From Rufibacter ruber (GTDB lineage: Bacteria; Bacteroidota; Bacteroidia; Cytophagales; Hymenobacteraceae): 36,199 bases of DNA. Positions 5,096-31,205 of this stretch are shown piece after piece (the first letter of the stretch is position 1; each line of letters opens with the position of its first letter). The stretch lies in contig NZ_LRMM01000057.1 of assembly GCF_001647275.1 (NCBI RefSeq), positions 1 to 36,199 on the forward strand, in the 5' to 3' direction. Made by a program: the position numbers and the translations under genes. The notes beneath the pieces were generated by a model. The model worked only from the letters and a program-made list of their open reading frames with translations. It had not been told where the DNA came from and made no database searches.

Positions 5096-5151
5096 TCACA
5101 GGTCTGTTTTTGACTTGATTTTTCAAAAACAGGCCAAAAACAAACCTGTGA
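5096..5151. repeat. Interspersed T-rich palindrome, copy 1
   Basis: The left arm contains CTGTTTTTGACTTGATTTTT and the right arm AAAAACAGGCCAAAAAC. The outer bases TCACAGGT and ACCTGTGA also pair. It lies about 100 bp 3' of the CE12 stop codon. Confidence 0.8.
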
Positions 5152-5251
5152 AATAATTTCTGCACTTACCCAAATGACTGTGGCTAATAGCATATTTCCC
5201 ACAGAACCAACTTCCCCAGCTTTGTGCCCTTAAAGAAACAGAGGGACGGTG

Positions 5252-6043
5252 TTATTTCTTTGCCAGGCTTTTCATTCCCTCAAACACCAGCCGGGCTACT
5301 TCTTTGGCTCCTTCGGGCTGGAAGTGGGTGTTGTCTTTCTGGCCGTCTGGGTAGTTTTTGTATTTGCCCGCCGGCAGGTTCATAAAATAGTGTTCGGTCA
5401 CATATACTTGGCCTTTGGCCGAGAAAGAATCAATGGACAGCTGCTGCAGGTCAATCAAGGGTACGTTCAACTCCCTGGCCACGTCTTTCACCGCCTGCGG
5501 ATATTCCCCGTGCACGTTCCCAATTTTACCGTCTTTCCAGGGGTAGTTGCGGGTTACGGGCGTGAGCAGGATTGGATACGCGCCTTTCTGCCTGGTTTGG
5601 TTCACGTACAGCCGAAGGTACTCTTTGTAGCCCTGCACGTTCACGTAGCGCTCCGGCTTGTTCTCTGCCGCATCATTGTGCCCGAACTGAATCATCACCA
5701 CGTCATTTTTCTTCAGCTCCTGGTAAACCGCTGCCCAGCGGCCTTCCTCAAAAAACGTACGGGTGCTTCTTCCGCCGCGGGCTTTGTCAAGCAAGAGAAC
5801 GCTGTCTGCTTTGATGAGGTTCTTCACTTTAGAAAGGCTGTCTGCCCGCAGATATGGCTGAAACACCTGCCCCCACCCCATCACCGGATAGCGTTTGTTC
5901 ATGTAGTCTTCGCCGTCATAGTCAGAGTAGTCTGCCACCGTAGAGTCGCCAATAAGATACACCCGCGCCACTTTCTTTTTGAAAGGGGCGAAGGCCATAA
6001 CCATCAGGAGCAGCACTACCGCAGGAACAAGTCTTTTTTTCAT
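5252..6043 (-). CDS. Rhamnogalacturonan acetylesterase-like SGNH hydrolase (CE12)
   Basis: This enzyme removes acetyl groups from pectin (rhamnogalacturonan or homogalacturonan) and probably acts in the periplasm. The 263 residues begin with a signal peptide or N-terminal anchor (1-20). The SGNH blocks are visible: IGDSTVADYS (nucleophile S34), the GRST region at 91-94, QFGHND with N123, and DNTHF with D237 and H240 completing the triad. Length and motifs fit the RhgT/YesT group of CE12. It lies between the GH28 gene (155 bp upstream) and the long leader of the giant CE8. Which acetylated pectin it prefers cannot be read from sequence. Confidence 0.9.
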   Translation of the reverse strand: MKKRLVPAVVLLLMVMAFAPFKKKVARVYLIGDSTVADYSDYDGEDYMNKRYPVMGWGQVFQPYLRADSLSKVKNLIKADSVLLLDKARGGRSTRTFFEEGRWAAVYQELKKNDVVMIQFGHNDAAENKPERYVNVQGYKEYLRLYVNQTRQKGAYPILLTPVTRNYPWKDGKIGNVHGEYPQAVKDVARELNVPLIDLQQLSIDSFSAKGQVYVTEHYFMNLPAGKYKNYPDGQKDNTHFQPEGAKEVARLVFEGMKSLAKK

Positions 6044-6071
6044 TGGGTAAGGGGAAATAGGGAGAGAATCA

Positions 6072-6122
6072 CCGTTTCTGTTTTGGAGCTGTTTTAGCCA
6101 AAACAGCTCAAAACAGAAACGG
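6072..6122. repeat. Interspersed T-rich palindrome, copy 2
   Basis: CCGTTTCTGTTTTGGAGCTG then TTTT pairs with AAAACAGCTCAAAACAGAAA then CGG around a 4-nt loop. The arms match over about 23 bp with one base missing on the right. It lies between the GH28 and CE12 genes, 28 bp upstream of the CE12 start codon. Confidence 0.85.
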
Positions 6123-6198
6123 CTTTTAGGTGAAGGTTGCTTCTGAAAAACTACCAGAAGGCTCCCAGACGCAGTGGCTACGCCGGCGGCCCTAAAGA

Positions 6199-7950
6199 TT
6201 ATTGCACTGAAACCGCGGCTTTCTTCAAGTCTTTCCCCTGTGAGATTTGGGTGGCGGAATTCTTAAAATCCTTGTTCTGCAGCTTCACATTCTGCGTCAA
6301 TGGCCCCAATATTTTCACGGCTGGCTCTTGGCTGTCTTTGTACGTAAGCCCCTGCACGTTCACGTTTTTGCTGTTGTAGATGGTCAGCGCCGGGCCTTTG
6401 TCAGTCAGCACCTTCACGTTTTTCAGCGTAATACCGGTGGCATCAACCGCCGTGATGCCTTTTTTGGCTTTCAGGAAAGCATTTTCAATAGACACGTTCT
6501 GCAAATTCATCTCGGGCAGTCCTTGCAAGGCCACCGCCTCATCTGCGCCAGACACAGTGATGTCCCGCATCCAGATATTTTTGAACGAAGGGGTTTCCTC
6601 CGTCACCGGCACCTGTTTCTCTACGCGGGCCTCAGTGCTGGCTTTCTGGTCTTCCTCCAAAACCGGGGAGTTGCCGCCATAGAACAGGTTGAAGCTGATG
6701 GCTTGGGTGGGAATGTTGATCATGTCAATGTTGGAGATCCAGATGTTCTCCACCACGCCGCCGCGGCCGCGCGTACTCTTGAAGCGCAGGCCAATGTCAG
6801 TGCCCATGAACGTGCAGTTAGACACGTGAATGTTTTTCACGCCACCCGACATTTCACTGCCCACCACAAAACCGCCGTGGCCGTGGTACACCACGTTGTT
6901 TTTCACAATGGCGTTTTCAGTGGGAATTCCTCTGTCACGGCCGTCTTTGTCTTTGCCAGATTTGAAGCAGATGGCGTCATCGCCCACGTCAAAGGTATTG
7001 TTGTACACCAGCGAGTTTTTGCAGGACTCCAGGTCCAGGCCGTCGCCGTTCTGGGAATACCACGGGTTGCGCACGTTCAGGTTGCGCAGGATCACGTTCT
7101 GGCACATGAGCGGGTGCAGGTTCCAGGCCGGTGAATTCTGGAACGTAGGGCCATCCAGCAGCACCCGGTTGCAGTTCACCAGACTCAACAACACCGGACG
7201 CAGGTAGTCTTTCACCGCCTCAAACTCTTCTTTGGTTTTAAAGTTGGGCACGTTGAAATTGTCTTTCCCATCCCCTTTCTTAGACTTCTCAGAAGGATAC
7301 CAGGTCTTCCCGTCTTCGCTCAAAACTCCAGTTTTAGTAAGGTTCTTCCACTGGGCATCGGTCATTTTGCTTTTCTTCACGGGGCGCCACGCATCCCCGT
7401 TGCCGTCAAAGGTGCCGGAGCCCGTGATGGCCACGTTTTCCAGATTATTACCGGAGATGGGCGACTGGCAGCGGTAGGTGTTCAAGCCTTCAAAGCTGGT
7501 CTTGATCAACGGGTAATCCTCAAAGTCACGGCTGAAGATGACCATGGAGCCCGCCTCGGCGTGCAGGTTGATGTTGCTTTTCAGCACAATGGGCCCCGTG
7601 TACCACAGCCCCCTGGGGATCACCACTGTTCCGCCCCCTTTGGCGGCCACCTCGGCAATGGCTTTTTCAAACGCCAGGGTATTCTTGGTGATGCCGTCGC
7701 CCACGGCGCCGAACTGGGTAATGCTTACCTTGTAGGCCGGGAAGCTGGTTTCCTGCACCCTTGGCATGTTGAACTCAATGCCCTGGTAAACTTGCTCCAA
7801 GGTGAGAGCGTCTTTCCCAACGCCTGCGCTGCCGCCGGTGGTTTGGGAAGCAGCGGCGGCGGCGGGCGTTGCCACCCCGGTTGGCTGCCGCTGGCACGAA
7901 AACTGAACTAAACCGGCCATGCCTATTGCCAGTAGTACTCGGTTCTTCAT
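6199..7950 (-). CDS. GH28 polygalacturonase-family lipoprotein
   Basis: Glycoside hydrolase of the right-handed beta-helix GH28 family. It cleaves galacturonate or rhamnogalacturonate linkages and is probably membrane-anchored. I place the start at the ATG at 7950 (583 residues), because it is preceded by GAGGAA and gives a compact lipoprotein signal ending LVQFSC (Cys19). An ATG at 7962 is also possible; the longer frame to 7980 needs TTG. GH28 signatures are intact: NGDGLD (301-306), GDD with D324/D325, HGHGG with H356/H358, and RFK (389-391). An extra segment at about 195-245 (rich in K, G and D) sits between early helix turns, as in the roughly 600-residue GH28 proteins of Bacteroidota. 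Whether it acts endo or exo is not clear. Confidence 0.9.
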   Translation of the reverse strand: MKNRVLLAIGMAGLVQFSCQRQPTGVATPAAAAASQTTGGSAGVGKDALTLEQVYQGIEFNMPRVQETSFPAYKVSITQFGAVGDGITKNTLAFEKAIAEVAAKGGGTVVIPRGLWYTGPIVLKSNINLHAEAGSMVIFSRDFEDYPLIKTSFEGLNTYRCQSPISGNNLENVAITGSGTFDGNGDAWRPVKKSKMTDAQWKNLTKTGVLSEDGKTWYPSEKSKKGDGKDNFNVPNFKTKEEFEAVKDYLRPVLLSLVNCNRVLLDGPTFQNSPAWNLHPLMCQNVILRNLNVRNPWYSQNGDGLDLESCKNSLVYNNTFDVGDDAICFKSGKDKDGRDRGIPTENAIVKNNVVYHGHGGFVVGSEMSGGVKNIHVSNCTFMGTDIGLRFKSTRGRGGVVENIWISNIDMINIPTQAISFNLFYGGNSPVLEEDQKASTEARVEKQVPVTEETPSFKNIWMRDITVSGADEAVALQGLPEMNLQNVSIENAFLKAKKGITAVDATGITLKNVKVLTDKGPALTIYNSKNVNVQGLTYKDSQEPAVKILGPLTQNVKLQNKDFKNSATQISQGKDLKKAAVSVQ

Positions 7951-7998
7951 CAAATTCCTCATATCTGTTTTACTCGTCAATTACTAAACTTACTTTTT

Positions 7999-8037
7999 CT
8001 GTTTTTAGCCTGTTTTCTGAAAAACAGCCCGAAAACG
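7999..8037. repeat. Interspersed T-rich palindrome, copy 3
   Basis: CTGTTTTTAGCCTGTTTT faces AAAACAGCCCGAAAACG with a short CTGA spacer. It lies 8 bp 3' of the GH43 stop codon. Confidence 0.8.
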
Positions 8038-8044
8038 CACTCAC

Positions 8045-9700
8045 TCAAGGTGTGATCCTGAACCAGTCATAGTCGGCGAAGCCGGAGTCATTGGTTTTGT
8101 CTTCCCGCGTAGCGAAGATGCCCACTTTTGCCCCAATCCAGCGGCCGGGCACGGCGGTAAAGACCTCTCCCGCCTGCTTGAAATTCTGCCAGTCTTCACT
8201 GTAGCTGAACTGGCACTTGGCGCCCGCAGTTACCTTTACCCTCAACTGCACCTCGTTGCCGCTCAATTTGCCAAGAATCTGCTCTTTCTCAGGAGTACCC
8301 TTGTGCGATTTCAGGGCAGAGGCATACGTCAGGTACAGCCCGTCTTTTTTGCTTACAATGGAGAGGTGGGCATAGTCTTCGCCCATGACTACCAAACCGG
8401 TGCGCTCCTTCTCCAGCTTTGGGTTTGGCGTAAATTTCACTTTGGTGGTGGCGGTAAAACTCTGCGCCGGAAACTTCTGCAGGAGCAGGTTGGGCACATC
8501 CCAGAGGTTCTTGCCGCCTTCGGGTAGCTGGTGGGTGTACAGCCGTAATACGCCGCGGTTGGTGGTGAAAGCCCAGGTGGACTTGGGGTTGGCGTGCCAC
8601 TGCCACTGCAGGCCCAACGTTGAGTCATTGAACTCATCTGATTCCTTCGGGGTCACCACCGGATAGGTCTTGCCTACGTTTGGCTTTTGGTAGACCATCA
8701 CGGGCTGACCTTTGCCGTCGCCGTCTGGGTCTTCGCCAATCACCGGCCAGTTGTTCACCCACTTCATGGGTTGCAGGTGCACCACGCGGCCATAGGCCTC
8801 CTTGTCCTGGAAGTGCAGGAACCAGTCTTCGCCGGAAGGCGTGTCAACCCATGCGCCCTGGTGCGGGCCGTTAACGGTGGTTTTGCCCTGATCCATCACA
8901 ATCCTCTCCTCATAGGGGCCGTACACGTTCTTAGAGCGAAGTACCAGCTGCCAACCCGTGGCCACCCCGCCCGCCGGCGCGAAGATGTAGTAATACCCGT
9001 TCCGCTTGTAGAACTTGGGGCCTTCCACGGTAGGGTGGTTCTCATGCCCGTCAAACACCAGCACGCCCTCGTCCAGAACCTTGGTACCCTCAGGGTTCAT
9101 CCTGTTCACGGTGAGAATGCTCTTGATGCCCGCCCGGCTTCCGGCCCAGCCGTGCACCAGGTAGGCCTTGCCGTCTTCATCCCAGAACGGGCAGGAGTCA
9201 ATCAGGCCTTTGCCCGCTTTTACCAGCACGGGTTCCTCCCACTTACCCTCGGGGTCTTTGGTCTTCACCATGTAGATGCCAAAGTCAGGATCTCCCCAGT
9301 AGATGTAGAATTCATCGTTGTGGTGCCGGATGGAGGGCGCCCATACGCCGTTGCCGTGCTGCGGTTGGGAGAAGTGCTCAAACGGCGGTTGGCGTTCTAG
9401 CGCATAGCCAATGATCTTCCAGTTCACCAGGTCCCTGGAGTGCAGGATCTGCAGCCCCGGAATGGCATTGAAGCTGGAGGAGGTCATGTAGTAGTCATCT
9501 CCTACCCGGCAAACGTCAGGGTCTGAGTAGTCGGCGTCAATTACCGGGTTCTGGTAGGTGCCGTTGCCTTTGTCTGCCACCCACACTTTTGAAACTTCGC
9601 CGGTGGGCGCAGCCGCTGAGGCAGGTGGACGGGTAGAGGGTTTCTCTGCCTGACAGGCCATCAGTAAGAGCAATCCGGCGGTGTAGTACTTTATACGCAT
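8045..9700 (-). CDS. GH43-family glycosidase lipoprotein (side-chain trimming)
   Basis: Five-bladed beta-propeller glycosidase, likely a beta-xylosidase or alpha-L-arabinofuranosidase acting on pectin side chains (for example xylogalacturonan or arabinan); the exact substrate is inference. I chose the ATG at 9700, which gives 551 residues. The longer frame (to 9766) adds a hydrophilic stretch ahead of an obvious lipoprotein signal MRIKYYTAGLLLLMAC (Cys16). GH43 catalytic residues appear: base D60 (YSDPDV), pKa-tuning D168 (LIDSCPFWDEDG) and acid E226 (TVEGPKFY). The C-terminal part, about 360-551, is a beta-sandwich of the concanavalin-like type found in GH43 xylosidases. It is flanked by the PL1/T9SS gene and the GH28 gene in the same direction. 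Confidence 0.9.
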   Translation of the reverse strand: MRIKYYTAGLLLLMACQAEKPSTRPPASAAAPTGEVSKVWVADKGNGTYQNPVIDADYSDPDVCRVGDDYYMTSSSFNAIPGLQILHSRDLVNWKIIGYALERQPPFEHFSQPQHGNGVWAPSIRHHNDEFYIYWGDPDFGIYMVKTKDPEGKWEEPVLVKAGKGLIDSCPFWDEDGKAYLVHGWAGSRAGIKSILTVNRMNPEGTKVLDEGVLVFDGHENHPTVEGPKFYKRNGYYYIFAPAGGVATGWQLVLRSKNVYGPYEERIVMDQGKTTVNGPHQGAWVDTPSGEDWFLHFQDKEAYGRVVHLQPMKWVNNWPVIGEDPDGDGKGQPVMVYQKPNVGKTYPVVTPKESDEFNDSTLGLQWQWHANPKSTWAFTTNRGVLRLYTHQLPEGGKNLWDVPNLLLQKFPAQSFTATTKVKFTPNPKLEKERTGLVVMGEDYAHLSIVSKKDGLYLTYASALKSHKGTPEKEQILGKLSGNEVQLRVKVTAGAKCQFSYSEDWQNFKQAGEVFTAVPGRWIGAKVGIFATREDKTNDSGFADYDWFRITP

Positions 9701-9786
9701 GTCACTTGGTTCACTTGGTACTGCTAAAGAGTGCGGGTCTGGTCTTCCGCCAAAGGCGGGAACCAACCGGCCTTCCCGTCAACTTT

Positions 9787-9825
9787 CTGTTTTTGGCCTG
9801 TTTTTGTAAAAACGGCTCCAAAACA
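9787..9825. repeat. Interspersed T-rich palindrome, copy 4
   Basis: CTGTTTTTGGCCTGTTTTTG faces AAAAACGGCTCCAAAAC. It ends 4 bp from the stop codon of the PL1 gene at 9829. A separate 5-bp stem (CCGCC/GGCGG, 9747-9759) lies next to it. Confidence 0.8.
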
Positions 9826-9828
9826 CAC

Positions 9829-11529
9829 TTATTCCTTTACAAGGGCTACACGCCTCACCACCACATCATTACCTACCTGCAGCGAAACCAGGTAAAGACC
9901 GGAGCCCATTGAGCCGCCGTGGCTGTCTTTCCCGTTCCATTCCACCTGGTGGGTTCCCGGGGTAACCGTTCCCTGGAAAACTGTGGCGACCACCTTGCCG
10001 GTTAAATCAAGTACCCTCACCAGTGCCTGGGCCTTTTGGGCGGCGGTGAACACCAGGGTGGTGGAGACCGTGAAAGGGTTGGGATACAGACGGGTGGCAA
10101 TAACCGCCTTTTCCTCTGCAGAGGAGGTGAGAGTTGCTGCCGGTACCAGGCTGTTCAGGTAATCTTCCAGGTTGGTGTAGCCGTTGCTGTTGCGGTCCCC
10201 GTTTCGGTCTGAAGCATCATTTGGGTTTAGGCCGTTCTGATTTTCCCAGGCATCTGGCATGCCGTCTTTGTCAGTGTCTGCGGGCGCCGGCAGTGACTCT
10301 AAGGTTGGCCAACCACCCACGGTGCCCTGGGTATCTATAATCCCCTTGCTGGCACCATAGGCTCCCCCATACGTAGCAGTACCGGTACGCACCTCATTGA
10401 TGATCCTGGTGTCAACCGCATCCCGCTTCAGGCTAGCCCCGGCCCCGGCCAAAACTGCCTCATACGCCTCAAGGGCGGTATGGGTCGTTTCCATGTGGTA
10501 ATCAATGGGCGCCTGCAGCCGCACGCTGGTTCTTTGGGCCGTGGTAATATTTGCGTCATAGTCTACGCCACCGGCCCAGTTGTCGGCGGTGACGGTGGCG
10601 TTGCCGTGCACGTAGTTGCCGTTGATGTAGAAGGTGCCATAGCCTGCCCCGAACTGGGGATCTGACTCATAGGAGACCTGCACAATGCGTTTACTTTTAC
10701 TGCTTGGGGTAGCCGGACCAGGTTTATAATAATTATTGACCATGTTGTATTTACCGTTCTCGCCGCCGTAGGCACTGTTATCGCCCCAGTTGTAGAGCAC
10801 ATTGTTCCTGAAATCAACATGCTCATTGGGATAGGTACCTCCGTTGATCCCAGACCGCCCGCCGCCGTTGAAACGGGGATTACGGCTGGTATGGTGGGCT
10901 AACAGGTTATGGTGGAACGTAGCCTGATCGCCGCCCCAAATGCCGCCATAGCCATGGTTGCCCTTGTTATGGACAGATTTGTACAGGCTTTCGCTCAAGA
11001 GACACCACTGCATGGTGAAATTCCTGTTCAGGTAAAAACTGGCCGTCTCATCTACTGACCAGCTCATGGTGCAGTGGTCAATAATTATATTCTGCTTGTT
11101 CCTGCCCCAGATGGCGTCATTCTCTACCTGCGCCTCATCTCCCAGCCTGAACCGCATGTACCGGATGATCACGTTGTCTGCGTCTACCGTCACAGTTTGG
11201 TTGCTGATGCAGATGCCGTCACCGGGTGCGGTCTGGCCCGCAATGGTGAGGTTTCCGTTTTTAATAGGCAGGGCCGAAAGCAATTTGATAGTGCCGCTCA
11301 CCCGGAAGACAATGGTTCTGGCGCCCGTTGCATTGACCGCCGCCCTAAAGCTGCCGGTGCCGGAGTCATTCAGGTTGGTGACCTCAATCACCGTGCCGCC
11401 CCTGCCCCCGGTGGTAAAACGCCCAAACCCTTCGGCCCCCGGAAAAGCCAGCTGCTGCGCAAAACCGACAGAGGTTTCAAGGGCCAACAGCACGAGTAGT
11501 GCCATGATATGTGGTAGTTTTTTTCTCAT
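9829..11529 (-). CDS. Secreted pectate lyase (PL1) with T9SS sorting domain
   Basis: Pectate lyase that cleaves polygalacturonate by beta-elimination and leaves unsaturated uronate ends. The 566 residues start with a signal peptide (cut near GFAQ, residue 24). The PL1 helix starts at LAFPGAEGFG. Calcium-site and active-site motifs include IIIDHC (D151), SWSVDE (D160, E161) and the TSRNPRF arginines R216 and R219. At about 418-455 a D-rich loop (DTDKDGMPDAWE, then DRNGDRNSNG) resembles a calcium-binding thrombospondin type 3 or dockerin-like segment. The last 85 residues, from LYPNPF, are a T9SS type A sorting domain, so this one of the three PL1 paralogues is exported across the outer membrane. 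A 411-bp gap full of palindromes separates it from the upstream CE8. Confidence 0.93.
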   Translation of the reverse strand: MRKKLPHIMALLVLLALETSVGFAQQLAFPGAEGFGRFTTGGRGGTVIEVTNLNDSGTGSFRAAVNATGARTIVFRVSGTIKLLSALPIKNGNLTIAGQTAPGDGICISNQTVTVDADNVIIRYMRFRLGDEAQVENDAIWGRNKQNIIIDHCTMSWSVDETASFYLNRNFTMQWCLLSESLYKSVHNKGNHGYGGIWGGDQATFHHNLLAHHTSRNPRFNGGGRSGINGGTYPNEHVDFRNNVLYNWGDNSAYGGENGKYNMVNNYYKPGPATPSSKSKRIVQVSYESDPQFGAGYGTFYINGNYVHGNATVTADNWAGGVDYDANITTAQRTSVRLQAPIDYHMETTHTALEAYEAVLAGAGASLKRDAVDTRIINEVRTGTATYGGAYGASKGIIDTQGTVGGWPTLESLPAPADTDKDGMPDAWENQNGLNPNDASDRNGDRNSNGYTNLEDYLNSLVPAATLTSSAEEKAVIATRLYPNPFTVSTTLVFTAAQKAQALVRVLDLTGKVVATVFQGTVTPGTHQVEWNGKDSHGGSMGSGLYLVSLQVGNDVVVRRVALVKE

Positions 11530-11569: not shown

Positions 11570-11617
11570 CTTTCCGTTTTTGGCTCGTTTCTAGAAAATC
11601 AGGCCATAAACGGAAAG
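11570..11617. repeat. Interspersed T-rich palindrome, copy 5
   Basis: CTTTCCGTTTTTGGCTCG then TTT faces AAAATCAGGCCATAAACGGAAAG around CTAG. The outer ends CTTTCCGTTT and AAACGGAAAG pair perfectly. Confidence 0.85.
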
Positions 11618-11892: not shown

Positions 11893-11936
11893 TTCCGTTT
11901 TTGCCTGTTTTCATAAAAACAGGCCAAAAACGGAAA
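11893..11936. repeat. Interspersed T-rich palindrome, copy 6
   Basis: TTCCGTTTTTGCCTGTTTT pairs with AAAACAGGCCAAAAACGGAA (one unpaired G) around CATA, the cleanest copy. It lies 4 bp 3' of the CE8 stop at 11941. Confidence 0.9.
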
Positions 11937-11940
11937 GTCA

Positions 11941-12930
11941 TTACTTTCCCGCCTGCGGGGTTTGCTTAGTTGCCAATGGGTCCCAGTCTCCGAAGATTTT
12001 TTCCAGGGTATATTCCTGCGCTTCTTCTGCCGTCAGCTGTTTAGACCAGCTTACCCGTTGCTTTGGGGCTGCCCCTGGTCCGGTAGAGCCAAACTCAGCA
12101 TAAAAAGTGGACTTCTCAGCGTCTGGTTTGCTCCAGTTATGCCAGCCTTCGGGTTTGATGTGCTTGCCCAGGTAGCTGTTGAGGAATACCGTCTTGGCAA
12201 ACGGCCGCCAGGGCCGGCCCAGATAATAAGAATTCTCAGGGGCATCGCCGGTAAGGCGGCAGTTGAGGAAGACAAAGCCATACGGCGTGCCTTCTAAGGT
12301 AGAGGCCGCCGTCACAAAACTCCCGCCTTTCTTGCTGTAGATCTCACACCCCTCAAACACCGCCGTTGACCACCCGAAGATGAAGTCTGTGGTGCCTTCT
12401 ATGTAGCAGTTCTTATAGTACTGGCGGCTCTTTTCGCCGTGCGGATACAGGGTGTCCTGAAAACCCAGAAACCGGCAGTTCTTGAACATGACCTTATCCC
12501 CGTCTACCCGCACGGCCACCGCCTGCCCCACCGGGCCAGCCGAGTTCTCAAACGTGATGTTCTCAGCCGTAAAATCGTCACCGTACACAAAGAAGCTGGA
12601 GGAGCCGGTGGTGCCCATCTCCTCGCCAAAGCGGTTTTTCTTAGCGGCATAGTCATCATGGGTGAGAACGGTTTTCTGCACGTCCTGCCCCACCAGTTTC
12701 ACATTGGTTTTGGTGGAAGGCAAGGTAAGTTTCTCCTTGTACACCCCGTTTTTGATATAGATGGTGGTCTGGTTCTTCCGGAAATCAGGTACAGCGTTGA
12801 TGGCCTCCTGCACCGTTTTGAACTGCCCGCTGCCGTCTTTGGCCACTACAAAGTCATACCGTTGGGCATACGCCGGTTCCAGCAGAATCAGGGACAGCAG
12901 GAACAGTAGAATAACTTTTCTAACTCCCAT
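11941..12930 (-). CDS. Pectin methylesterase (CE8), periplasmic
   Basis: Demethylates homogalacturonan so that pectate lyases can act. The 329 residues start with a signal peptide (about 1-22, PAYAQ), and no anchor or T9SS tail is visible, so a periplasmic location is inferred. CE8 features are complete: VGQAVAV (Q136), GFQDTLY (acid D159), TTDFIFG (nucleophile D182) and YYLGRPWRP (R239). Length is normal for the family. It starts 5 bp after the GH105 stop codon, so the two are almost certainly co-transcribed. It is closely similar in design to the CE8 at 14257-15204 but clearly diverged from it, so the pair reflects an old duplication or separate acquisition. Confidence 0.94.
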   Translation of the reverse strand: MGVRKVILLFLLSLILLEPAYAQRYDFVVAKDGSGQFKTVQEAINAVPDFRKNQTTIYIKNGVYKEKLTLPSTKTNVKLVGQDVQKTVLTHDDYAAKKNRFGEEMGTTGSSSFFVYGDDFTAENITFENSAGPVGQAVAVRVDGDKVMFKNCRFLGFQDTLYPHGEKSRQYYKNCYIEGTTDFIFGWSTAVFEGCEIYSKKGGSFVTAASTLEGTPYGFVFLNCRLTGDAPENSYYLGRPWRPFAKTVFLNSYLGKHIKPEGWHNWSKPDAEKSTFYAEFGSTGPGAAPKQRVSWSKQLTAEEAQEYTLEKIFGDWDPLATKQTPQAGK

Positions 12931-14212: not shown

Positions 14213-14251
14213 CTGTTTTCGCCGCTTTGTTTGAATAACAGGCCGGAAACA
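14213..14251. repeat. Interspersed T-rich palindrome, copy 7 (degenerate)
   Basis: CTGTTTTCGCCGCTTTGTTT faces AATAACAGGCCGGAAACAAG. The arms are recognisable but have several mismatches. It lies 5 bp 3' of the CE8 stop at 14257. Confidence 0.6.
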
Positions 14252-14256
14252 AGGGG

Positions 14257-15204
14257 TTAGTGTTTGGTTGGGTTCCAGTTGTCTTTGCCGGCCAGGACTT
14301 TCTCTGGAGTAAATTTCTTAGCCTCTTTCCGGGTGAGCTGCTTTGACCATGGCACCCGCTGGTCTTTGGCAGCCCCGGGCCCCGATGATTTATATTCGGC
14401 GTAAAAGGCGGTTTTCTCAGCTTCAGGTTTCTTCCAGTTGTGCCACCCCTCAGGTCTGATGTGCGCGCCCAGCTCTGAATTCAGGAACACCGTCTGCGCA
14501 TACGGCCGCCAGGGCCGGCCCAGATAGACCTTAGTGGCCTCTGCTGAGGCCGTGTTGATCTTGCAGTTCAAAAACACAAACCCGTAGGGTTGGTCTTTGG
14601 GCGTAGACGCGGCGGTGATGTAGGAGTTCTTTTTGCAGTGGATGGTACAGTTCTCAAACACCGCCGTGGCCGGCCCGAAGATAAAATCTGTGGTGCCTTC
14701 TATGTAGCAGTTCACATAGTACTGGCGGCTGTTGTCTACCCCGGCGTACAGCGTGTCCTGGTCGCCAATGATGTTGCAGTTTTTGAACACGCAGCGGTCT
14801 GCCTCCACGTGCAGGGCCACCGCCTGCCCTACCGGGCCTGCGTTGTTTTCAAAGGTGATGTTTTCGGCCTGAAACTCATTGCCCTGCACCAGTACCGTGT
14901 AAGAGGTAAAGGTGTTGATCTCGCCTTTGCCGGAGTAGTCATTCCAGACTATGCGGGTTTTGTCCCGGTCTTCCCCTTTAAAAGAAATCCTGGTCTTCCA
15001 GGAAGGGATCACCAGTTTCTCCCTATACACGCCGTTCCTGATCCTGATCTCGATCCTCTCCTCCGGGAAAGCCGGGATAGCGTCTACCGCCGCCTGAATG
15101 GTGGTATGGTCACCGCTTCCGTCTTGCGCCACCACCAGCTGCTTCTGCTGGGCGTGGGCCAGGAAACCGGTCAGGAATAAAATAAGTAAGATCTTCCACT
15201 TCAT
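14257..15204 (-). CDS. Pectin methylesterase (CE8), periplasmic
   Basis: Second free-standing CE8, 315 residues with a signal peptide (about 1-19, AHAQ). The catalytic set is intact: VGQAVAL (Q127), GDQDTLY (D150), TTDFIFG (D173) and VYLGRPWRP (R230). GDQDTLY instead of the GFQDTLY of the neighbour changes a residue beside the catalytic acid, which may alter substrate contacts. It starts 10 bp after the stop codon of the PL1 gene at 15215, so lyase and esterase are probably made from one message that the operator at 16649 controls. No T9SS tail or lipobox is seen. Confidence 0.94.
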   Translation of the reverse strand: MKWKILLILFLTGFLAHAQQKQLVVAQDGSGDHTTIQAAVDAIPAFPEERIEIRIRNGVYREKLVIPSWKTRISFKGEDRDKTRIVWNDYSGKGEINTFTSYTVLVQGNEFQAENITFENNAGPVGQAVALHVEADRCVFKNCNIIGDQDTLYAGVDNSRQYYVNCYIEGTTDFIFGPATAVFENCTIHCKKNSYITAASTPKDQPYGFVFLNCKINTASAEATKVYLGRPWRPYAQTVFLNSELGAHIRPEGWHNWKKPEAEKTAFYAEYKSSGPGAAKDQRVPWSKQLTRKEAKKFTPEKVLAGKDNWNPTKH

Positions 15205-16679: not shown

Positions 16680-16718
16680 CTGTTTTTTGGCTGTTTTCAA
16701 AAACAAGGCCAAAAACAG
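16680..16718. repeat. Interspersed T-rich palindrome, copy 8
   Basis: CTGTTTTTTGGCTGTTTT faces AAAACAAGGCCAAAAACAG. It lies 50 bp 3' of the DUF4861 stop and directly upstream of the PL1 promoter region, so it may also supply a -33 element. Confidence 0.8.
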
Positions 16719-18057: not shown

Positions 18058-18131
18058 GGTACACTTCTGTTGTAAATAAACTCCAGCATTGCTGCTGTGG
18101 TATTTGCCCCATCGCCCATACACCGGCATGA

Positions 18132-18172
18132 CCTGTTTTTGGGCTGTTTTCTCAAATATAGCCTAAAAAAGG
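18132..18172. repeat. Interspersed T-rich palindrome, copy 9
   Basis: CCTGTTTTTGGGCTGTTTT faces AAATATAGCCTAAAAAAGGG, with imperfect pairing. It lies 12 bp 3' of the PL1 stop at 18185. Confidence 0.65.
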
Positions 18173-23276: not shown

Positions 23277-26200
23277 TTAAAAAGTAACATTCACCCCACC
23301 TAAGACATAACGGCTCCTAGGATAAGCTGCATGATCTACACCTGGTGTCAATCCAGTTCTTCTTCTCGTATTTGCTTCAGGGTCATAACCTGAATATCCT
23401 GTTATGGTAGCCAAGTTATTAACTGTTGCATACACTCTAAATTTAGAAATAACTCTAGTCCTCTTTAATAGTGACTCTGGCAATGAATATCCTAAGGTCA
23501 AATTTGATATTCTTAAATAGGATCCGTCTTCAATTGCGAATGAATGCAGAAAGTAATTACCTCTTACCGGTGTCCAATACTTAGCATCTTTATTCATTTC
23601 AGCTAATTGCTCTGGATTTGTAACTAACAGACCATTATTATCATACCAATTCCAGCGGTCACGCATAAAAGACAGCATATTATTATCCCTTGTTTCATAC
23701 AGTGTAGTAAACTCCAACTTATTGGCATTATATACTTTTGCTCCGTATGAGAAATTAAGGAATATACTCAAATCAAAACCTTTATAGGTTAATTGTTGAT
23801 TTAATCCACCGAAAAACTTAGGTTGGTTATTTCCTAAAACAGTTCTATCATCTGCTCCTACCATTGAAGTACCATTATCAGGGGTTAAATCTTTTAATTT
23901 AAGATCACCTGGCTGTGGTGCTCTATTACCTAAAGCTATTTCCCTACTATTAGCTATACCGTCTTTCAACACATATGTCCAAGAGTTAGAAGCTGCATTG
24001 TAAGTAGAATTAAAATCTTCAAGTTTATAGTAACCATCAGTTACATAACCATAAAACTGCCCCACAGGGCCACCAACTTGAACTAAGAAATCATTGTATG
24101 TGACAGATTGTGTTGGCAACCATCCAGAAGGGAAAGGATATGATTTCAAAGGTTGTCCAGAAGGATCAATTCCTAGGCTCATAATTCTGTTCTTCTGATG
24201 TGTAATATTGAAATTTGCTGTCCAGGTAAAATCGCCTTTATCCATTACTACTCCATCTAACTGAAGCTCTACCCCTCTATTGCGGGTTTCACCTACGTTC
24301 TGAAGCTGGCGGGTATAACCACTAGTTGGTGGTATTTGCGCTTCAATCAAAAGGTCATTTGTCGTATTCTCATAAACATCAATGCTGGCATTCAACCTGC
24401 TATTCCACAAGGACATATCTACCCCTAAATTTTTTGACATAGTTGTTTCCCAGACCAAAGCTCTGTTTGCCAAAATTGGCGCATAATAACCTGGAGTAAC
24501 AGATTCACTAAATGCATACCCATAGTCAGCACTAGCACTGAAATTAGATCTCCACTGATCTGGATCTATACGGTTATTACCAACTGCTCCATATCCAAAC
24601 CTTAGTTTGAGATCATTTAACCAGCTTTTGGTATTAGCCATAAAGCTTTCCTCTCCAACATGCCAAGCCAATGAAACAGTTGGGAAATAACCCACCTTGT
24701 TTTCAGGAGCAAACAACGAAGAAGCATCACGTCTTAGAGCAAAATTTAATCTGTATTTTTCTCTAAAATTATAACCAACAGAACTAAACAAAGAGAAAAG
24801 AGCTTCTCCAGTTATAAATGTTGTAGCAGGTGATTGAATAGCATTTGCGGGAGGTGTAGCTTTGTCAATACCTGCAAAGGCTTGCTCAGGAGTAATGTCA
24901 ACTGGCAGCCATCTCACTGCTACGCCATAATCCTCCCTATTCCTTTTCCAGGTTTCCTGCCCTACTAATACATTTATTTTGTGATCTTCTCCAAAAGAAG
25001 CACGGTAATTCAAGGTATTTGAGTTCGTGTAAGTTAGCGCCTTTCTATCTGTCAAGTTTACTATGGGTTGACCATTTTCTCTTAATGCAGATGAGGTGGC
25101 AGGGCCAAAGAACTCATTTACTCTTCTTTCACCTGAGGTAACCCCAAATACACTTTTAAAAGTTAAATTCTTGATTAGATCTAAACTAAAATAGCCATTT
25201 AAGATAATGTCATTACGCTTATCATACCGTAATTCTTGTCTTGCTAAAAGAACAGGGCTGATCAAGTTAGAAAACTCATAATCTATTGGATCAAATTCAT
25301 TAACCTGATCTTCAAATCCTGGAGCGACAAAAGGTCTGAATCTCACAGCATTTCTCAACCGGCTAAACCCTACATTACCTGTAGACGACGAACCAGTACC
25401 CTCAATTTCTTGACGGCTATAGCGGGTAGTAAAACCAATCTTAAATCTATCGTTAACTTTATGGTCAAACTTAAGGGAGGCAAGTGTACGAACATTGCCA
25501 GAATTAATCATAATACCTTCTTCATCAACATGATTAAGTGTGATATTAAAGGAAGTTGTTTTACTTCCCCCAGTCACACCTAAAATGTGATTTTGGCTAA
25601 CAGCAGCTCTACCAAAAACTTCTTCCTGCCAATCAGTTTTAGGCATACTGCGATATATATCTAAATCCTCAAAGCGACCATAGCGATCCCGAAAGCTCTC
25701 CCGTGATCGCTCATCTCTATTATAGTTATATACTTGATACTGATATAAGGCAAAATCATAAGGATCCATTACATCTAGCTTCTTAACTATTTGCCTTACA
25801 CCTACAAATCCATTATAAGTAACCTGGGTGGGCATATCTCGGCCACCTTTGGTAGTGATTACAATTACCCCGTTAGATCCCCTCGCTCCATAAATAGCAG
25901 TTGACGCGGCGTCTTTTAACACATCAACAGATTGAATTTCTTGAGGAGAAAGAAAGTTCAGAGCGTTCTCTACCTGAATACCATCTACGATATACAATGG
26001 CTCGTTACTCTGAGTAATAGAATTACCACCTCTTACCCGTATGGTCACTTCAGCTCCTGGCTGCCCTTCAGAAGAAGTAACCTGAACGCCAGCCAACCTT
26101 CCTGCTAAGGCGTCTGCTGCTGTGCTCACTGGTATATCCTGCAATTGCTTGGCATTCACCGAAGACACCGAACTGGTTAATTCCTTCCTAGTTACTGTCT

Positions 26201-26549
26201 GATAACCAACCACCACCACTTCATCAACAAATTTTGTATCAGATGACAATGACACATTAACAGTTGACTTCCCGGCAATAGCCACTTCTTTTGGCTGAAA
26301 CCCAATATAGGAGAACACCAGCGTACCGTTCAGGTTTGGAACGGTCAGGGTGTAGTTTCCCTCAACGTCAGTAGCGTTTGCCGTGGTGGTTCCTTTTAAC
26401 AGAACCGTCACACCGGGCAAGCCCTCCCCCTTTTCATCGGTCACTTTCCCTTGAACAGTAGCAGACTGCGCAAAGGCTCCTAACACGGCGTAAAAGAACA
26501 GAGGCAGCACCAGCAAGTACCGGATCTTCTTTTGTAAGGCTTGTTGCAT
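23277..26549 (-). CDS. susC: SusC/RagA-family TonB-dependent transporter
   Basis: Outer-membrane importer of pectin oligomers, energised by TonB. I use the ATG at 26549 (1090 residues); the frame reaches 26558 only through a TTG. A signal peptide (about 1-28, GAFAQ) is followed by a carboxypeptidase-regulatory-like domain (TVQGKVTDEKGEGLPGVTVL), the DEVVVVGYQ segment, and the plug with SVDVLKDAASTAIYGARGSN and GVIVITTKGG. The large beta-barrel carries the usual late motifs (LRISNLTLGYSLPESLL, FRVYATVNNLATITGYSGYD) and ends GGVNVTF. It leads the minus-strand arm, and its start region carries a candidate promoter and LacI-type operator. The first 300-350 bp are about 52-57% GC in the lines I counted, while the rest is near 37%; this looks like a recombination joint. 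Confidence 0.96.
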   Translation of the reverse strand: MQQALQKKIRYLLVLPLFFYAVLGAFAQSATVQGKVTDEKGEGLPGVTVLLKGTTTANATDVEGNYTLTVPNLNGTLVFSYIGFQPKEVAIAGKSTVNVSLSSDTKFVDEVVVVGYQTVTRKELTSSVSSVNAKQLQDIPVSTAADALAGRLAGVQVTSSEGQPGAEVTIRVRGGNSITQSNEPLYIVDGIQVENALNFLSPQEIQSVDVLKDAASTAIYGARGSNGVIVITTKGGRDMPTQVTYNGFVGVRQIVKKLDVMDPYDFALYQYQVYNYNRDERSRESFRDRYGRFEDLDIYRSMPKTDWQEEVFGRAAVSQNHILGVTGGSKTTSFNITLNHVDEEGIMINSGNVRTLASLKFDHKVNDRFKIGFTTRYSRQEIEGTGSSSTGNVGFSRLRNAVRFRPFVAPGFEDQVNEFDPIDYEFSNLISPVLLARQELRYDKRNDIILNGYFSLDLIKNLTFKSVFGVTSGERRVNEFFGPATSSALRENGQPIVNLTDRKALTYTNSNTLNYRASFGEDHKINVLVGQETWKRNREDYGVAVRWLPVDITPEQAFAGIDKATPPANAIQSPATTFITGEALFSLFSSVGYNFREKYRLNFALRRDASSLFAPENKVGYFPTVSLAWHVGEESFMANTKSWLNDLKLRFGYGAVGNNRIDPDQWRSNFSASADYGYAFSESVTPGYYAPILANRALVWETTMSKNLGVDMSLWNSRLNASIDVYENTTNDLLIEAQIPPTSGYTRQLQNVGETRNRGVELQLDGVVMDKGDFTWTANFNITHQKNRIMSLGIDPSGQPLKSYPFPSGWLPTQSVTYNDFLVQVGGPVGQFYGYVTDGYYKLEDFNSTYNAASNSWTYVLKDGIANSREIALGNRAPQPGDLKLKDLTPDNGTSMVGADDRTVLGNNQPKFFGGLNQQLTYKGFDLSIFLNFSYGAKVYNANKLEFTTLYETRDNNMLSFMRDRWNWYDNNGLLVTNPEQLAEMNKDAKYWTPVRGNYFLHSFAIEDGSYLRISNLTLGYSLPESLLKRTRVISKFRVYATVNNLATITGYSGYDPEANTRRRTGLTPGVDHAAYPRSRYVLGGVNVTF

Positions 26550-26620
26550 AGGTAACAATTTGAAATTTTGTTAATGATTAGGATAAGTATTTTCAACGGA
26601 CGGTTAAACAGGTAAACTGC

Positions 26621-26669: not shown

Positions 26670-26703
26670 CTGTTGTTTTTTAGCAGTTTTCTAAAACACC
26701 CCT
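26670..26703. repeat. Weak T-rich palindrome-like sequence
   Basis: CTGTTGTTTTTTAGCAGTTT then TCTAAAACACC resembles the left half of the interspersed palindrome, but the right arm is poor. It is listed because of its position between the two promoters. Confidence 0.3.
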
Positions 26704-26812
26704 CCCAGAGTACGTATTTTTAACATATTTTAATCTCACCCTCTTTTCCACAGAAACCCTTTCAATAATCTTTTCCAACCTTTTCCTTCCCCACTTTTAT
26801 ACATTGTATTAA

Positions 26813-26820: not shown

Positions 26821-26828
26821 TAATTTGC

Positions 26829-26840
26829 GCAAACGATTAC
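26829..26840. promoter_or_regulatory. LacI-family operator at the kduI promoter
   Basis: GCAAACGATTAC lies within TTGCGCAAACGATTACATC and differs from the core GCAAACGATTGC at one base. It is about 10 bp after the -7 element and 18 bp before the kduI ATG, a position suited to repression. Confidence 0.65.
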
Positions 26841-26858
26841 ATCAATCTGCCTAGAATT

Positions 26859-27698
26859 ATGAGCATACACCACACCACCAGGCACGCCATACACCCGGCT
26901 GATGCGAAAGGGTATGACACCCAAAAACTACGGGAAGCTTTCCTGATTGAAAACCTCTTCAGAAAGGATGCGATAGAATTGGTGTACACTTTATATGACC
27001 GCCTGATAGTAGGCGGCGTGCACCCCGTGAACTCTCCGGTAAAATTGGAAACAATCCCCACCCTCAGATCAGACTACTTCCTGGACCGCCGGGAAATGGG
27101 CATCATTAACGTAGGTGCTCCGGGCACTGTCACTGTAGATGGCCAGGAATTTTCTCTTGAAACGAAAGAAGCTTTATATATAGGCAAAGGTGCCAAAGAC
27201 GTAGTTTTTCATCCGGCCGCAAACGGTACCGCCTATTTTTATTTCAACTCAGCCCCTGCCCACCACACTTATCCTACTAAAAAAGTAAGTTTAGCCGAAG
27301 CGGAAACGGTGGAATTGGGCTCTCTGGAAAACTCTAACCACCGCACCATTAGAAAAGTGTTGATCAATTCTGTGGTAGAGACCTGCCAGCTGCAGATGGG
27401 AGTGACCGAACTGAAACCCGGCAGTGTCTGGAACACCATGCCAGCGCATACCCACGACCGCCGCATGGAGGCGTACTTCTACTTTGAACTTCCAGAAGAC
27501 CAGACGGTTTGCCATTTCATGGGAGAACCCCAGGAGACCAGACACCTCTGGGTAAAGAACCACCAAGCCATCATTTCTCCACCCTGGTCCATTCACTCTG
27601 GCGCCGGCACCTCTAACTATACCTTTATCTGGGGCATGGCCGGTGAAAACCTGGATTACAATGACATGGACAAAGTGGCCCCTACTGATTTAAAATAG
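26859..27698 (+). CDS. kduI: 5-keto-4-deoxyuronate isomerase
   Basis: Cytoplasmic KduI converts 5-keto-4-deoxyuronate (DKI, formed spontaneously from unsaturated galacturonate) to 2,5-diketo-3-deoxygluconate for KduD. The 279 residues match the family length (278 in E. coli). KduI segments are clear throughout: FLIENLFRKDAIELVYTLYD, RLIVGGVHPV, REMGIINVGAPGTV and YIGKGAKDVVF. The metal-site region is MPAHTHDRRMEAYFYFELP with two His and a Glu, followed by WSIHSGAGTSNYTFIWGMAGEN near the end. It is the first gene of the plus-strand arm, 7 bp before kduD, and is controlled by the promoter and operator just upstream. There is no signal peptide. Confidence 0.96.
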   Translation: MSIHHTTRHAIHPADAKGYDTQKLREAFLIENLFRKDAIELVYTLYDRLIVGGVHPVNSPVKLETIPTLRSDYFLDRREMGIINVGAPGTVTVDGQEFSLETKEALYIGKGAKDVVFHPAANGTAYFYFNSAPAHHTYPTKKVSLAEAETVELGSLENSNHRTIRKVLINSVVETCQLQMGVTELKPGSVWNTMPAHTHDRRMEAYFYFELPEDQTVCHFMGEPQETRHLWVKNHQAIISPPWSIHSGAGTSNYTFIWGMAGENLDYNDMDKVAPTDLK

Positions 27699-27705
27699 TA
27701 TTACA

Positions 27706-28493: not shown

Positions 28494-28541
28494 TTTTAAG
28501 CAACAACTTTTTTGAGTTAGATCTTTAAACTCACTGCTTTT

Positions 28542-29597: not shown

Positions 29598-29687
29598 CAA
29601 CTATTTCACCTGAAAAAGAGGTCACTCCTCAGAAGCAACCCAATCACCATTAGTAAGCTGAACCGTCAGTTCCAAAAGCAGAAACGT

Positions 29688-31112
29688 ATGCAATCCTTAA
29701 ACAGAAATACCGCCGGTGTCACCACCACCCACCCAGTGAAAGTCCTTCAATTTGGAGAAGGGAACTTCTTGAGAGGTTTTGTTGACTGGATGATTGACAT
29801 CCTCAATGAGAAAACCTCCTTTCACGGTTCAGTGGAGATTGTACAGCCAATTGACAAAGGCATTGTGCATCTTCTGAACCAACAGGACGGACTTTACCAT
29901 CTCATTCTGGAGGGGATTCAGAACGGTGAGGCCACTCAGGAAAGAAGACTTATCACGGCTGTTGCGGGCGGGCTGAACCCATATGCTGATTATGAAGCTT
30001 ACCTGCAGCGCGGGGAGAATCCAGAACTGGAATTCATCATCTCTAACACCACTGAGGCAGGTATCTGCTTTGACGCCGCTGATACTACGCCTGAGTCCAT
30101 CCCAAGCAGCTTCCCTGGTAAATTAACTGCTCTGCTGTACCGCCGCTACACATATTTTAATGGGGCCTCAGACAAGGCGCTTACCATCATTCCGTGTGAA
30201 CTGATTGAAAAGAACGGCGAAACCTTGCGTGACACAGTACTACAGTTTGCCAAACACTGGAACCTGCCAGAGGGCTTCAGCACCTGGATCCAGAATGACA
30301 CTATCTTCTGCAATACCCTGGTAGACCGCATTGTTCCGGGCTTCCCGAAAGATACGATCAAGGAGATTCAGCAGGAAATAGGCTATGAAGACAACCTGGT
30401 GGTGAAAGCAGAGCCCTTCCACCTGTGGGTCATTGAGGCGCCCGCCTCTGTGGCAGCGGCCTTCCCTACAGAAAAGGCTGGTCTGCAGGTAAAGTTTGTA
30501 GAGGATCTCACCCCGTACCGCACCCGCAAAGTGCGTATCCTGAACGGCGCCCATACCGCTTTAGTACCGGTTGCCTATCTGCAGGGTTTACGTACGGTGA
30601 GAGAAGCGGTAGAAGATGAAAAAGCCGGCAAGTTCATCAGAGAAGCTATTTTTGAAGAGATCATTCCCACGCTTGACCTTTCAGCCCAGGAACTGAACCA
30701 GTTTGCCAATGATGTGATAGAGCGGTTCCAGAACCCGTTCATCCGGCATGAGCTGATGTCTATTGCCCTCAACTCCGTCTCTAAATACAAAGTAAGGGTG
30801 CTGCCTTCCGTACTGGAGTACATTCACAGAAAAGGCCAGCTGCCACAGCGTCTGCTGACCTCCCTGGCTGCCTTGATCCTGTTTTACAAAGGGGAGTGGA
30901 ACGGAGAGCAGATCCCCTTGAATGACACAGCAGAGGTGTTATCCTTCTTCCAAAGCGCATGGGCCAAAGAAACGGCGGCTGAAACCGTTCATGCCGTACT
31001 GGCGAACCAGGACTTCTGGGAAACCGATCTCACCAGCGTGCCTGGCCTGGAACAGGCTGTACAGCAGGCATTAGAAAACCTTCAAGCTCAGGAGCAACTG
31101 CGCTCCGTTTAG
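29688..31112 (+). CDS. uxaB: Tagaturonate reductase (altronate oxidoreductase)
   Basis: Cytoplasmic NADH-dependent reductase that converts D-tagaturonate to D-altronate. The 474 residues belong to the mannitol dehydrogenase family: an N-terminal Rossmann part with VLQFGEGNFLRGFVDWMID, then ISNTTEAGI, and FCNTLVDRIVPGFP. The C-terminal helical domain contains the family signature region KVRILNGAHTALVPVAYLQG with its active-site Lys, Asn and His. Length fits UxaB (about 480) rather than mannonate oxidoreductase, and uxaC next door supports the galacturonate branch. It is 90 bp after the regulator gene. A T-rich palindrome follows its stop codon. Confidence 0.93.
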   Translation: MQSLNRNTAGVTTTHPVKVLQFGEGNFLRGFVDWMIDILNEKTSFHGSVEIVQPIDKGIVHLLNQQDGLYHLILEGIQNGEATQERRLITAVAGGLNPYADYEAYLQRGENPELEFIISNTTEAGICFDAADTTPESIPSSFPGKLTALLYRRYTYFNGASDKALTIIPCELIEKNGETLRDTVLQFAKHWNLPEGFSTWIQNDTIFCNTLVDRIVPGFPKDTIKEIQQEIGYEDNLVVKAEPFHLWVIEAPASVAAAFPTEKAGLQVKFVEDLTPYRTRKVRILNGAHTALVPVAYLQGLRTVREAVEDEKAGKFIREAIFEEIIPTLDLSAQELNQFANDVIERFQNPFIRHELMSIALNSVSKYKVRVLPSVLEYIHRKGQLPQRLLTSLAALILFYKGEWNGEQIPLNDTAEVLSFFQSAWAKETAAETVHAVLANQDFWETDLTSVPGLEQAVQQALENLQAQEQLRSV

Positions 31113-31166
31113 AGGAACCATTTGATACTAAATCCTCCAAAAAGAGACGGCAATTAAAAAAGCTAT

Positions 31167-31205
31167 CTGTTTTTGACCTATTTTCACAAAACTAGCCCAA
31201 AAACG
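31167..31205. repeat. Interspersed T-rich palindrome, copy 10 (plus-strand arm)
   Basis: CTGTTTTTGACCTATTTT faces AAAACTAGCCCAAAAACG. It lies about 55 bp 3' of uxaB and is the only clear copy in the catabolic arm. Confidence 0.75.

Follow-up and report, generated by a model that had tools for sequence, protein, structure and literature searches.

When palindromes occur in high copy between genes, the usual explanation is either a selfish repeat of the REP type or an RNA hairpin, and for the REP/BIME elements of E. coli, in connection with gyrase, a role in supercoiling has reportedly been proposed. In the available text of two reports, the elements of the REP/BIME and RAYT/TnpA-REP systems appear as short, high-copy intergenic palindromes often located between convergent genes (PMC3733652, PMC1525189), and the latter report cites REPs as sites of gyrase and IHF. 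Subclass 2.6 of the Y1 proteins is, according to the accessible part of PMC6006769, found mostly in Bacteroidetes, and the structures that flank it are atypical and have further copies in other parts of the genome. REP-like counts were tabulated for three Bacteroidota genomes in PMC12306157, in whose available text Hymenobacter and Rufibacter are absent; palindromes of such a general kind are thus known in the phylum. The DNA uptake sequences of Neisseriaceae, as far as described in the accessible portion of PMC3630211, occur at very high copy number, in dialects and as inverted pairs near gene ends that are associated with terminators. Among the matches listed in a search of open full-text papers, no title or start of an abstract described the element of Rufibacter ruber reported here.

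The window, i.e., the whole 36,199-bp stretch of R. ruber DNA that was analysed, contains a PUL. All ten T-rich palindromes that an earlier note had located in it were present, with starts that shift slightly under the present arm motif; they were intergenic according to the ORF calls of the window, lay above chance expectation and were grouped as one family by a repeat search. Each copy was scored by its match to CYGTTTTNGGSCTGTTTT plus its reverse complement (maximum 34), and the ten copies reached values of 26–32. At a score of at least 24, 211 places were found in 436,199 bp of the R. ruber genome (G000) and none after this sequence had been dinucleotide-shuffled once.

No strand was assigned to any copy. 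Copy 1 (5104–5143, score 30/34) lies 108 bp after the stop codon of the GDSL hydrolase gene (5252–6043, minus strand) and copy 2 (6078–6117, score 29) 81 bp after that of the GH28 gene (6199–7980, minus). Seven copies follow a stop codon within 60 bp, in agreement with the earlier note: copy 3 (7999–8038, score 32) by 6 bp, after the GH43 gene (8045–9766, minus) and in a gap of 64 bp; copy 4 (9787–9826, score 31) by 2 bp, after the ORF 9829–11529 (minus) and in a gap of 62 bp; copy 6 (11894–11933, score 30) by 7 bp, after the pectinesterase gene 11941–12930 (minus); copy 7 (14213–14252), with a score of 26 the weakest clear copy, by 4 bp, after the pectinesterase gene 14257–15204 (minus); copy 8 (16680–16718, score 31), which has a 3-bp centre, by 49 bp, after the DUF4861 gene (16768–18129, minus); copy 9 (18133–18172, score 30) by 12 bp, after the ORF 18185–19678 (minus) and in a gap of 55 bp; and copy 10 (31167–31206, score 29) by 54 bp, after the mannitol-dehydrogenase-family gene (29688–31112, plus). 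Copy 5 (11574–11613, score 29) is located 44 bp upstream of the ORF 9829–11529 and shares a 411-bp gap with copy 6. A doubtful eleventh copy with one good arm (26673–26710, score 25) was found in the divergent gap between susC (23277–26558, minus) and the KduI/IolB gene kduI (26859–27698, plus). It is true that no copy lies inside the susC-susD-DUF5123 block, but this absence says little because the gaps there measure just 18, 30 and 61 bp.

The density in R. ruber was approximately 475 copies/Mb, which extrapolates to approximately 2,600 copies in the 5.5-Mb genome, and one core pattern was matched exactly at 1,561 places. With this density and a length of approximately 40 bp, the element falls within the definition of a REP as a 20–40-bp extragenic palindrome of high copy number. 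The PUL is not special, because ten copies in 36 kb are slightly below the density of the genome; given the genome-wide copies and their presence throughout the genus, the suggestion that they set the ratio of enzymes to transporter was dropped and a PUL-specific function was rejected. The four-box form was found in 16/16 genomes of the genus vs. 0/184 other genomes of the family. A search of the phylum, run with a pattern of wrong spacing, gave 254 matches in R. ruber, 0–3 in the other 394 genomes and 0–4 in the reversed controls; the pattern with the right spacing was searched at the order level. Among the matches listed in a scan of genome contigs, none was named as a genus member; a tolerant scan of the 80 named loci from this listing gave 63 matches in 1.42 Mb vs. 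14 in a shuffle; these were taken as chance matches, and most of those examined were in AT-rich records.

The element is a dyad in which a 4-bp centre separates two half-sites of inverted orientation. In R. ruber, the half-site is close to CYGTTTTnGGsCTGTTTT, and each half-site has two T-boxes 11 bp apart, which corresponds to about one helical turn. Analysis of the flanks of 179 copies revealed just a preference for T (0.56) at the two positions adjoining CYG. Lone half-sites (score of at least 15, outside dyads) numbered 2 in 516 kb vs. 245 dyads in R. ruber, the thresholds of the two counts differing by 2; with lone half-sites nearly absent, a drive acting on them was rejected.

The favouring of gene 3′ ends by a coherent family, as proposed in the earlier note, was borne out, and genome-wide the copies proved to be abundant and non-randomly placed rather than rare or random. 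Among spacers of at least 44 bp in seven species, the element was present in 129/151 convergent, 249/484 co-directional and 61/144 divergent ones (convergent vs. divergent, P about 5e-15). Copies inside called ORFs (27/245 in R. ruber, 14/120 in genome G005) were left out of these spacer counts, and gene prediction relied on a simple script (ORFs and hexamers), which tends to place starts too early. Short convergent spacers (80–199 bp) carried the element in 14/15 cases in R. ruber and in 20/23 cases in G005, where 3.0 and 5.6, respectively, were expected from the density in long convergent spacers (P 8e-10 and 2e-10), and 33 of the 34 occupied ones held exactly one element each. Of the 133 co-directional copies in R. 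ruber, 75 followed the upstream stop codon by no more than 60 bp and 31 preceded the next start by no more than 60 bp, and 6 of 222 copies were deeper than 300 bp inside an ORF.

Comparison of orthologous gaps revealed conservation in place, with the element found in other species in 74/95 gaps where R. ruber has one vs. 2/74 where it has none (P 9e-26). In one gap, the element was present in 16/16 species, with the box edge 6–13 bp from the same stop codon, and one conserved copy immediately preceded a predicted start codon in 9/9 species. The sequence follows species-specific dialects, as determined from consensuses built only from copies with at least 13 of 16 pairs, and the dialect differences affect both arms together; the letters shift to species versions while the positions at gene ends persist. 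The one clear gain examined, in genome G012, was a piece of approximately 125 bp.

That the element acts as an RNA hairpin in the 3′ UTR, stabilising, processing or attenuating the message as had been proposed in the earlier note, is very unlikely. Either strand is foldable and more than half of the co-directional copies closely follow a stop codon, as counted above, but on the mRNA strand of seven species G·T mismatches equalled A·C mismatches (331 vs. 335). In the co-directional gaps of R. ruber and G005, mismatches were evenly distributed over the 5′ and 3′ arms (258 vs. 272) and the centre 4-mers were without strand preference (69 vs. 69). The arms were nearly independent, the C/G position 11 pairing in 0.55 of the R. 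ruber copies vs. 0.47 by chance; some covariation was seen at position 8 in R. ruber (0.47 vs. 0.30) and at positions 7, 8, 9 and 11 in G005, and in the 23 perfect copies it reached its maximum, at position 8 (0.74 vs. 0.24). A T-rich stretch (at least 5 T in the 8 nt after the hairpin) was present in only 10/257 reading directions, at least 5 A in the same 8 nt were present in 34/257, and Rfam gave no match in the window. Based on the mismatch classes, the near-independent arms and the missing U-tract, the RNA hairpin was rejected; there is no sign of RNA-level selection, and the signal is at the DNA level and symmetric. A mobile palindrome family, the other possibility raised in the earlier note, was not supported either. 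Across the offsets and lengths that were tried on 179 copies, no clear target-site duplication was found: flank identity exceeded that of a one-rotation control by at most 0.05. The mean pairwise identity of the R. ruber copies was 0.715 vs. a column expectation of 0.717. Copies were likewise no more alike than their columns predict in G005, G012, G004 and G009, and slightly less so in G015, whose copies are near noise (a shuffle would yield approximately 8 of the 55 counted); a few identical copies exist, the maximum pairwise identity being 1.0 in R. ruber, G012 and G004. Recent transposition was rejected on these flank and identity tests. Spread and maintenance of a REP-like element by the Y1 (TnpA-REP-like) proteins of the genus, with later fixation in place, is rather unlikely, although one Y1 subgroup leaves room for it. 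Y1 proteins of approximately 182 aa occur in 15/16 genus genomes, and by eye their motifs resemble those of subclass 2.6 as given in the accessible part of PMC6006769; yet genus member G006, without a Y1 match, has 607 core matches. One Y1 orthologue group has the element 38–41 bp upstream in 5/5 genomes, and in two related groups, picked post hoc, 5/8 loci are flanked on either side by copies no more than 300 bp away (P 0.003 vs. 94/621 ordinary genes). Over all loci examined, the same count was not clearly above that of ordinary genes, both for 20 Y1 loci of seven genomes fetched by place (6/20 vs. 94/621; P 0.11) and for a second set (5/28 vs. 88/607; P 0.59) comprising 28 of 30 loci, a fragment and a weak match being left out, from a parent search with 52 matches. 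Copies were recognised by different procedures in the two counts, and the results for individual loci do not always agree: an upstream copy of the R. ruber orthologue, seen when the orthologue group was inspected, was missed in the 28-locus count. For a Y1/REPtron relationship, the orthologue group was suggestive, but no clear enrichment was found over all loci examined. Unlike REP/BIME elements, the R. ruber element is a plain dyad with a 4-bp centre, has no conserved GTAG or CGTC tetranucleotide in the flanks of 179 copies and does not clearly flank Y1 genes overall; its place is conserved across the genus and its copies are not extra alike.

A motif like the DNA uptake sequences, in which the inverted pair is the unit and spreads through uptake bias and recombination, would account for more than 1000 copies, for species dialects as in Neisseriaceae (PMC3630211, accessible portion), for change in place without copying and for the excess of information. 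We nevertheless consider it highly improbable, since lone units are almost absent here and few copies lie within genes; moreover, the motif is approximately 40 bp long, and the near-saturation of short convergent spacers is not predicted by uptake bias alone. Somewhat less remote, but still unlikely, is a site of chromosome architecture at which a nucleoid protein or a type II topoisomerase would handle the positive supercoils of convergent transcription, with no effect on transcript ends needed. Convergent spacers being the most and divergent ones the least occupied is in line with such a site, as is the REP parallel of gyrase and IHF sites between convergent genes (PMC1525189, available text). 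The symmetric 4-bp centre and the T-boxes nearly in helical phase would, by their geometry, fit a symmetric wrapping or cutting enzyme; on the other side stand the many copies in co-directional gaps and the dialects of a strict 51-bit motif. Such strictness is unlike gyrase, whose sequence preferences are loose.

We tentatively favour the reading of the element as a double-stranded DNA site for a putative DNA-binding protein of the genus, which would form a boundary in both directions where genes end. The placement, the conservation, the symmetry at the DNA level, the dialects shared by both arms and the rarity of lone half-sites count for such a boundary site. From these we infer that the putative protein would bind the dyad as a symmetric dimer or tetramer and that one symmetric complex would serve both directions: it may impede RNA polymerase from both directions or, alternatively, absorb the torsion of meeting polymerases, and neighbouring transcription units, above all convergent ones, would be kept apart. 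Against a boundary count the start-adjacent copies (the one conserved in 9/9 species and 31/133 in R. ruber), some arm covariation and the few identical copies. The site information of 51.4 bits, where approximately 11 bits suffice for locating 2,600 sites, far exceeds the need of simple recognition and likewise counts against the favoured reading. Conceivable, with more doubt attached, is a genus-specific boundary system in which one protein would mark most convergent junctions via around two thousand symmetric sites; protein and sites would have changed specificity together, in place and several times, without copying of the sites. The usual marks of REP-type repeats and RNA hairpins were weak or missing and the marks of in-place selection strong; with this element, the function of such sequences at gene ends can be tested cleanly, as can the way in which a motif present at thousands of sites is able to diverge in sequence within a genus and yet stay in place.

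With bidirectional intrinsic terminators, the element has in common that one symmetric element serves two convergent genes; unlike them, it has a fixed sequence and an inverted polarity, with the T-rich arm first, the A-rich arm second and rarely a U-tract. Some copies of this gene cluster lie in gaps of 55–64 bp, where a mere 3–20 bp separate them from the next predicted start; complete termination at these places is impossible, which also counts against a boundary. Terminator-like hairpins of the ordinary kind were found in 25/91 convergent gaps of the genus vs. 12/31 in four other genera (P 0.26). With no clear depletion in the genus, there is no clear sign that the element takes their place, and replacement of ordinary terminators was discarded as an explanation. 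Ordinary A-stem-T hairpins coexist with the element, and the two touch each other in 13 of the 20 gaps having both.

The ten T-rich palindromes reported in the earlier note (5096, 6072, 7999, 9787, 11570, 11893, 14213, 16680, 18132 and 31167) were all recovered, scoring 26–32 of 34 against CYGTTTTNGGSCTGTTTT and its reverse complement. At a score of at least 24, 211 places were found in 436 kb of the genome of the window (G000; 5.5 Mb, 166 contigs) and none in one dinucleotide shuffle, the distribution over these 436 kb being bimodal with 188 places at 28–34 and 23 at 24–27. A strict pattern gave 336 forward matches in the whole genome versus 0 in the reversed control. The 245 copies in the 516 kb sampled (window included) correspond to 475 per Mb and, by extrapolation from this sample, to approximately 2,600 copies in the genome.

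Searching the order for exact matches to a dialect-independent core pattern revealed 1,561 in G000 and 1,134, 607 and 186 in the genomes G005, G006 and G008, respectively; the other 287 genomes searched had 0–15 each (reversed controls, 0–10). A four-box pattern was present in 16/16 genomes of the genus (3–642 matches) versus 0/184 others of the family. With a tolerant scan of 19–516 kb per species, 200–647 copies per Mb were counted across the 16 species, and the density was 0 in four other genera of the family (100 kb each). One conserved protein was 95–98% identical to that of G000 among members of the genus, the closest named record among the matches listed being from Pontibacter (90%). 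These identities agree with a place in Hymenobacteraceae; Rufibacter as the genus is a guess based on G+C content and the number of species.

In each element, two inverted half-sites, both containing two T-boxes at a spacing of 11 bp, flank a centre; among 105 oriented co-directional copies, 97 had a centre of 4 bp. Among 179 copies, T at half-site positions 5, 6 and 16–18 was conserved at 0.99–1.00, position 8 was almost unconstrained, and position 11 was C or G. The dyad holds 51.4 bits of information versus 11.0 bits needed for locating 2,600 sites; lone half-sites scoring at least 15 numbered two in 516 kb of G000 and none in 320 kb of G005. With both strands counted, the central dinucleotide CG was avoided (18 observed, 66 expected), and CA/TG and AG/CT were favoured. 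In G000 and the genus, AT was avoided as well and GC exceeded expectation; complementarity within the centre was under expectation in G000, G012 and G004, and not clearly so in G005 or G009.

Comparison of orthologous gaps in two syntenic blocks, with 16 species in one and 14 in the other, showed an element in 74 of 95 gaps where G000 has one versus 2 of 74 where it has none. Between genes g43923 and g44714, the element was found in 16/16 species in a gap of 75–92 bp, its box edge always lying 6–13 bp from the same stop codon. Half-sites built from 8 to 115 palindromes per species, selected for pairing, read ctGTTTTnGGSCTGTTTT in G000, gCGTTTAGGGGCtgTTTT in G004, CcGTTTTcGGGCTCATTT in G012, YCGTTTTTGGcCTRTTTT in G013 and ctGTTTTggGcCTGTTTT in G005, and the dialect of a species was seen on both arms. 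In G012 (loci L042 and L066), where the dialect is distinct, some copies were identical; one G012 copy occupied a gap in which 14 other species have no copy, the gained piece being an insert of approximately 125 bp and not a bare 40-mer.

In seven species, spacers of at least 44 bp held the element in 129/151 convergent, 249/484 co-directional and 61/144 divergent cases. A count of divergent spacers of 44–120 bp gave 0/12. Convergent spacers of 80–199 bp contained it in 14/15 cases in G000 and 20/23 in G005, where 3.0 and 5.6, respectively, were expected from the element density in long convergent spacers. Of the 133 copies in co-directional gaps of G000, 75 were no more than 60 bp away from the upstream stop and 31 no more than 60 bp from the start that follows, and only 6 of 222 copies scoring at least 27 lay more than 300 bp deep in a called ORF.

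An RNA hairpin was rejected as the selected feature. Counted along the mRNA strand for co-directional genes of seven species, G·T mispairs (331) were as frequent as A·C mispairs (335; P = 0.91); selection on RNA would favour G·U. Mismatches were equal on the two arms in co-directional gaps, the centre 4-mers showed no strand preference there, a T-rich tail was present in only 10/257 reading directions, and an Rfam search of the window gave no match. Pairing in G000 was in clear excess over independence at position 8 (0.47 vs. 0.30), weakly so at position 11 (0.55 vs. 0.47), and above independence at position 17, where few copies vary; G005 showed a mild excess at positions 7, 8, 9 and 11. The pairing of position 8 in the 23 copies without mismatch at the fixed positions (0.74 vs. 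0.24) is compatible to some degree with correction through a hairpin, or with the best copies being recent in origin.

A loose tie of the element to transcript ends is suggested by adjoining hairpins and by the gap g42727/g43251, where, by eye in 14 aligned species, the T-tract of a hairpin continues into the outer box. GC hairpins adjoined the element somewhat more often on sides at which a gene reads into it than on the other sides, at 57/257 versus 26/179 in G000 (P = 0.05) and at 21/127 versus 6/85 in G005 (P = 0.06), the shuffled-flank control giving 54/436 and 20/212, respectively. Ordinary A-stem-T hairpins are present in related genera, occurring in 12/31 convergent gaps of four other genera versus 25/91 in the genus (P = 0.26), where they coexist with the element and touch it in 13 of 20 gaps holding both.

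Nor is the element evidently mobile. No clear target duplication was found at the copies, and mean identity between copies equalled column expectation (0.715 vs. 0.717 in G000; 0.690 vs. 0.693 in G005), despite which a few identical copies exist. TnpA-REP-like Y1 transposases, considered as possible spreaders, were encoded in 15/16 genomes of the genus, yet G006, with its 607 core matches, has none. Y1 loci overall were not clearly enriched in flanking copies (6/20 vs. 94/621, P = 0.11; second set, 5/28 vs. 88/607, P = 0.59). Against the non-mobile reading, one Y1 orthologue group had a copy 38–41 bp upstream in 5/5 genomes, and two related groups, chosen post hoc, had copies on both sides at 5/8 loci. 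Some Y1 transposase-like genes, e.g., at L240 (G011) and L248 (G002), contain an internal stop codon.

The symmetry, strict letters, dialects and absence of RNA selection fit a double-stranded DNA dyad that would be recognised by a putative protein. Short convergent gaps are saturated by one copy each, which fits a possible two-way boundary role, in which the element would act on polymerase rather than on supercoils. Full termination cannot occur at the copies at 7999, 9787 and 18133, because only 18, 20 and 3 bp, respectively, separate them from the next predicted start codon; copies so crowded against a start more probably act as a partial obstacle or in a topological role.

Positions 456–35939 of the window read as a pectin utilisation locus, with three pectinesterases, GH28, GH43, GH88, a GDSL hydrolase, SusC/SusD, KduI, an SDR, a LacI regulator, UxaC, a PfkB kinase, a KDPG/KHG aldolase and an MFS transporter. 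The pectinesterase at 456–4688 has three InlB B-repeat-like (Flg_new_2) stretches, and its DNA three 133-nt copies spaced 219 nt. The MFS_1 gene (34543–35939) looks frameshifted, or affected by an assembly indel, since one transporter profile is split between the overlapping ORFs 34543–35364 (its first part) and 35265–35939 (its second part). After it, at 35948–36000, lies an A-stem-T hairpin with 22-nt arms (95% complementary) and a 9-nt loop, which resembles an intrinsic terminator and differs from the ten palindromes.
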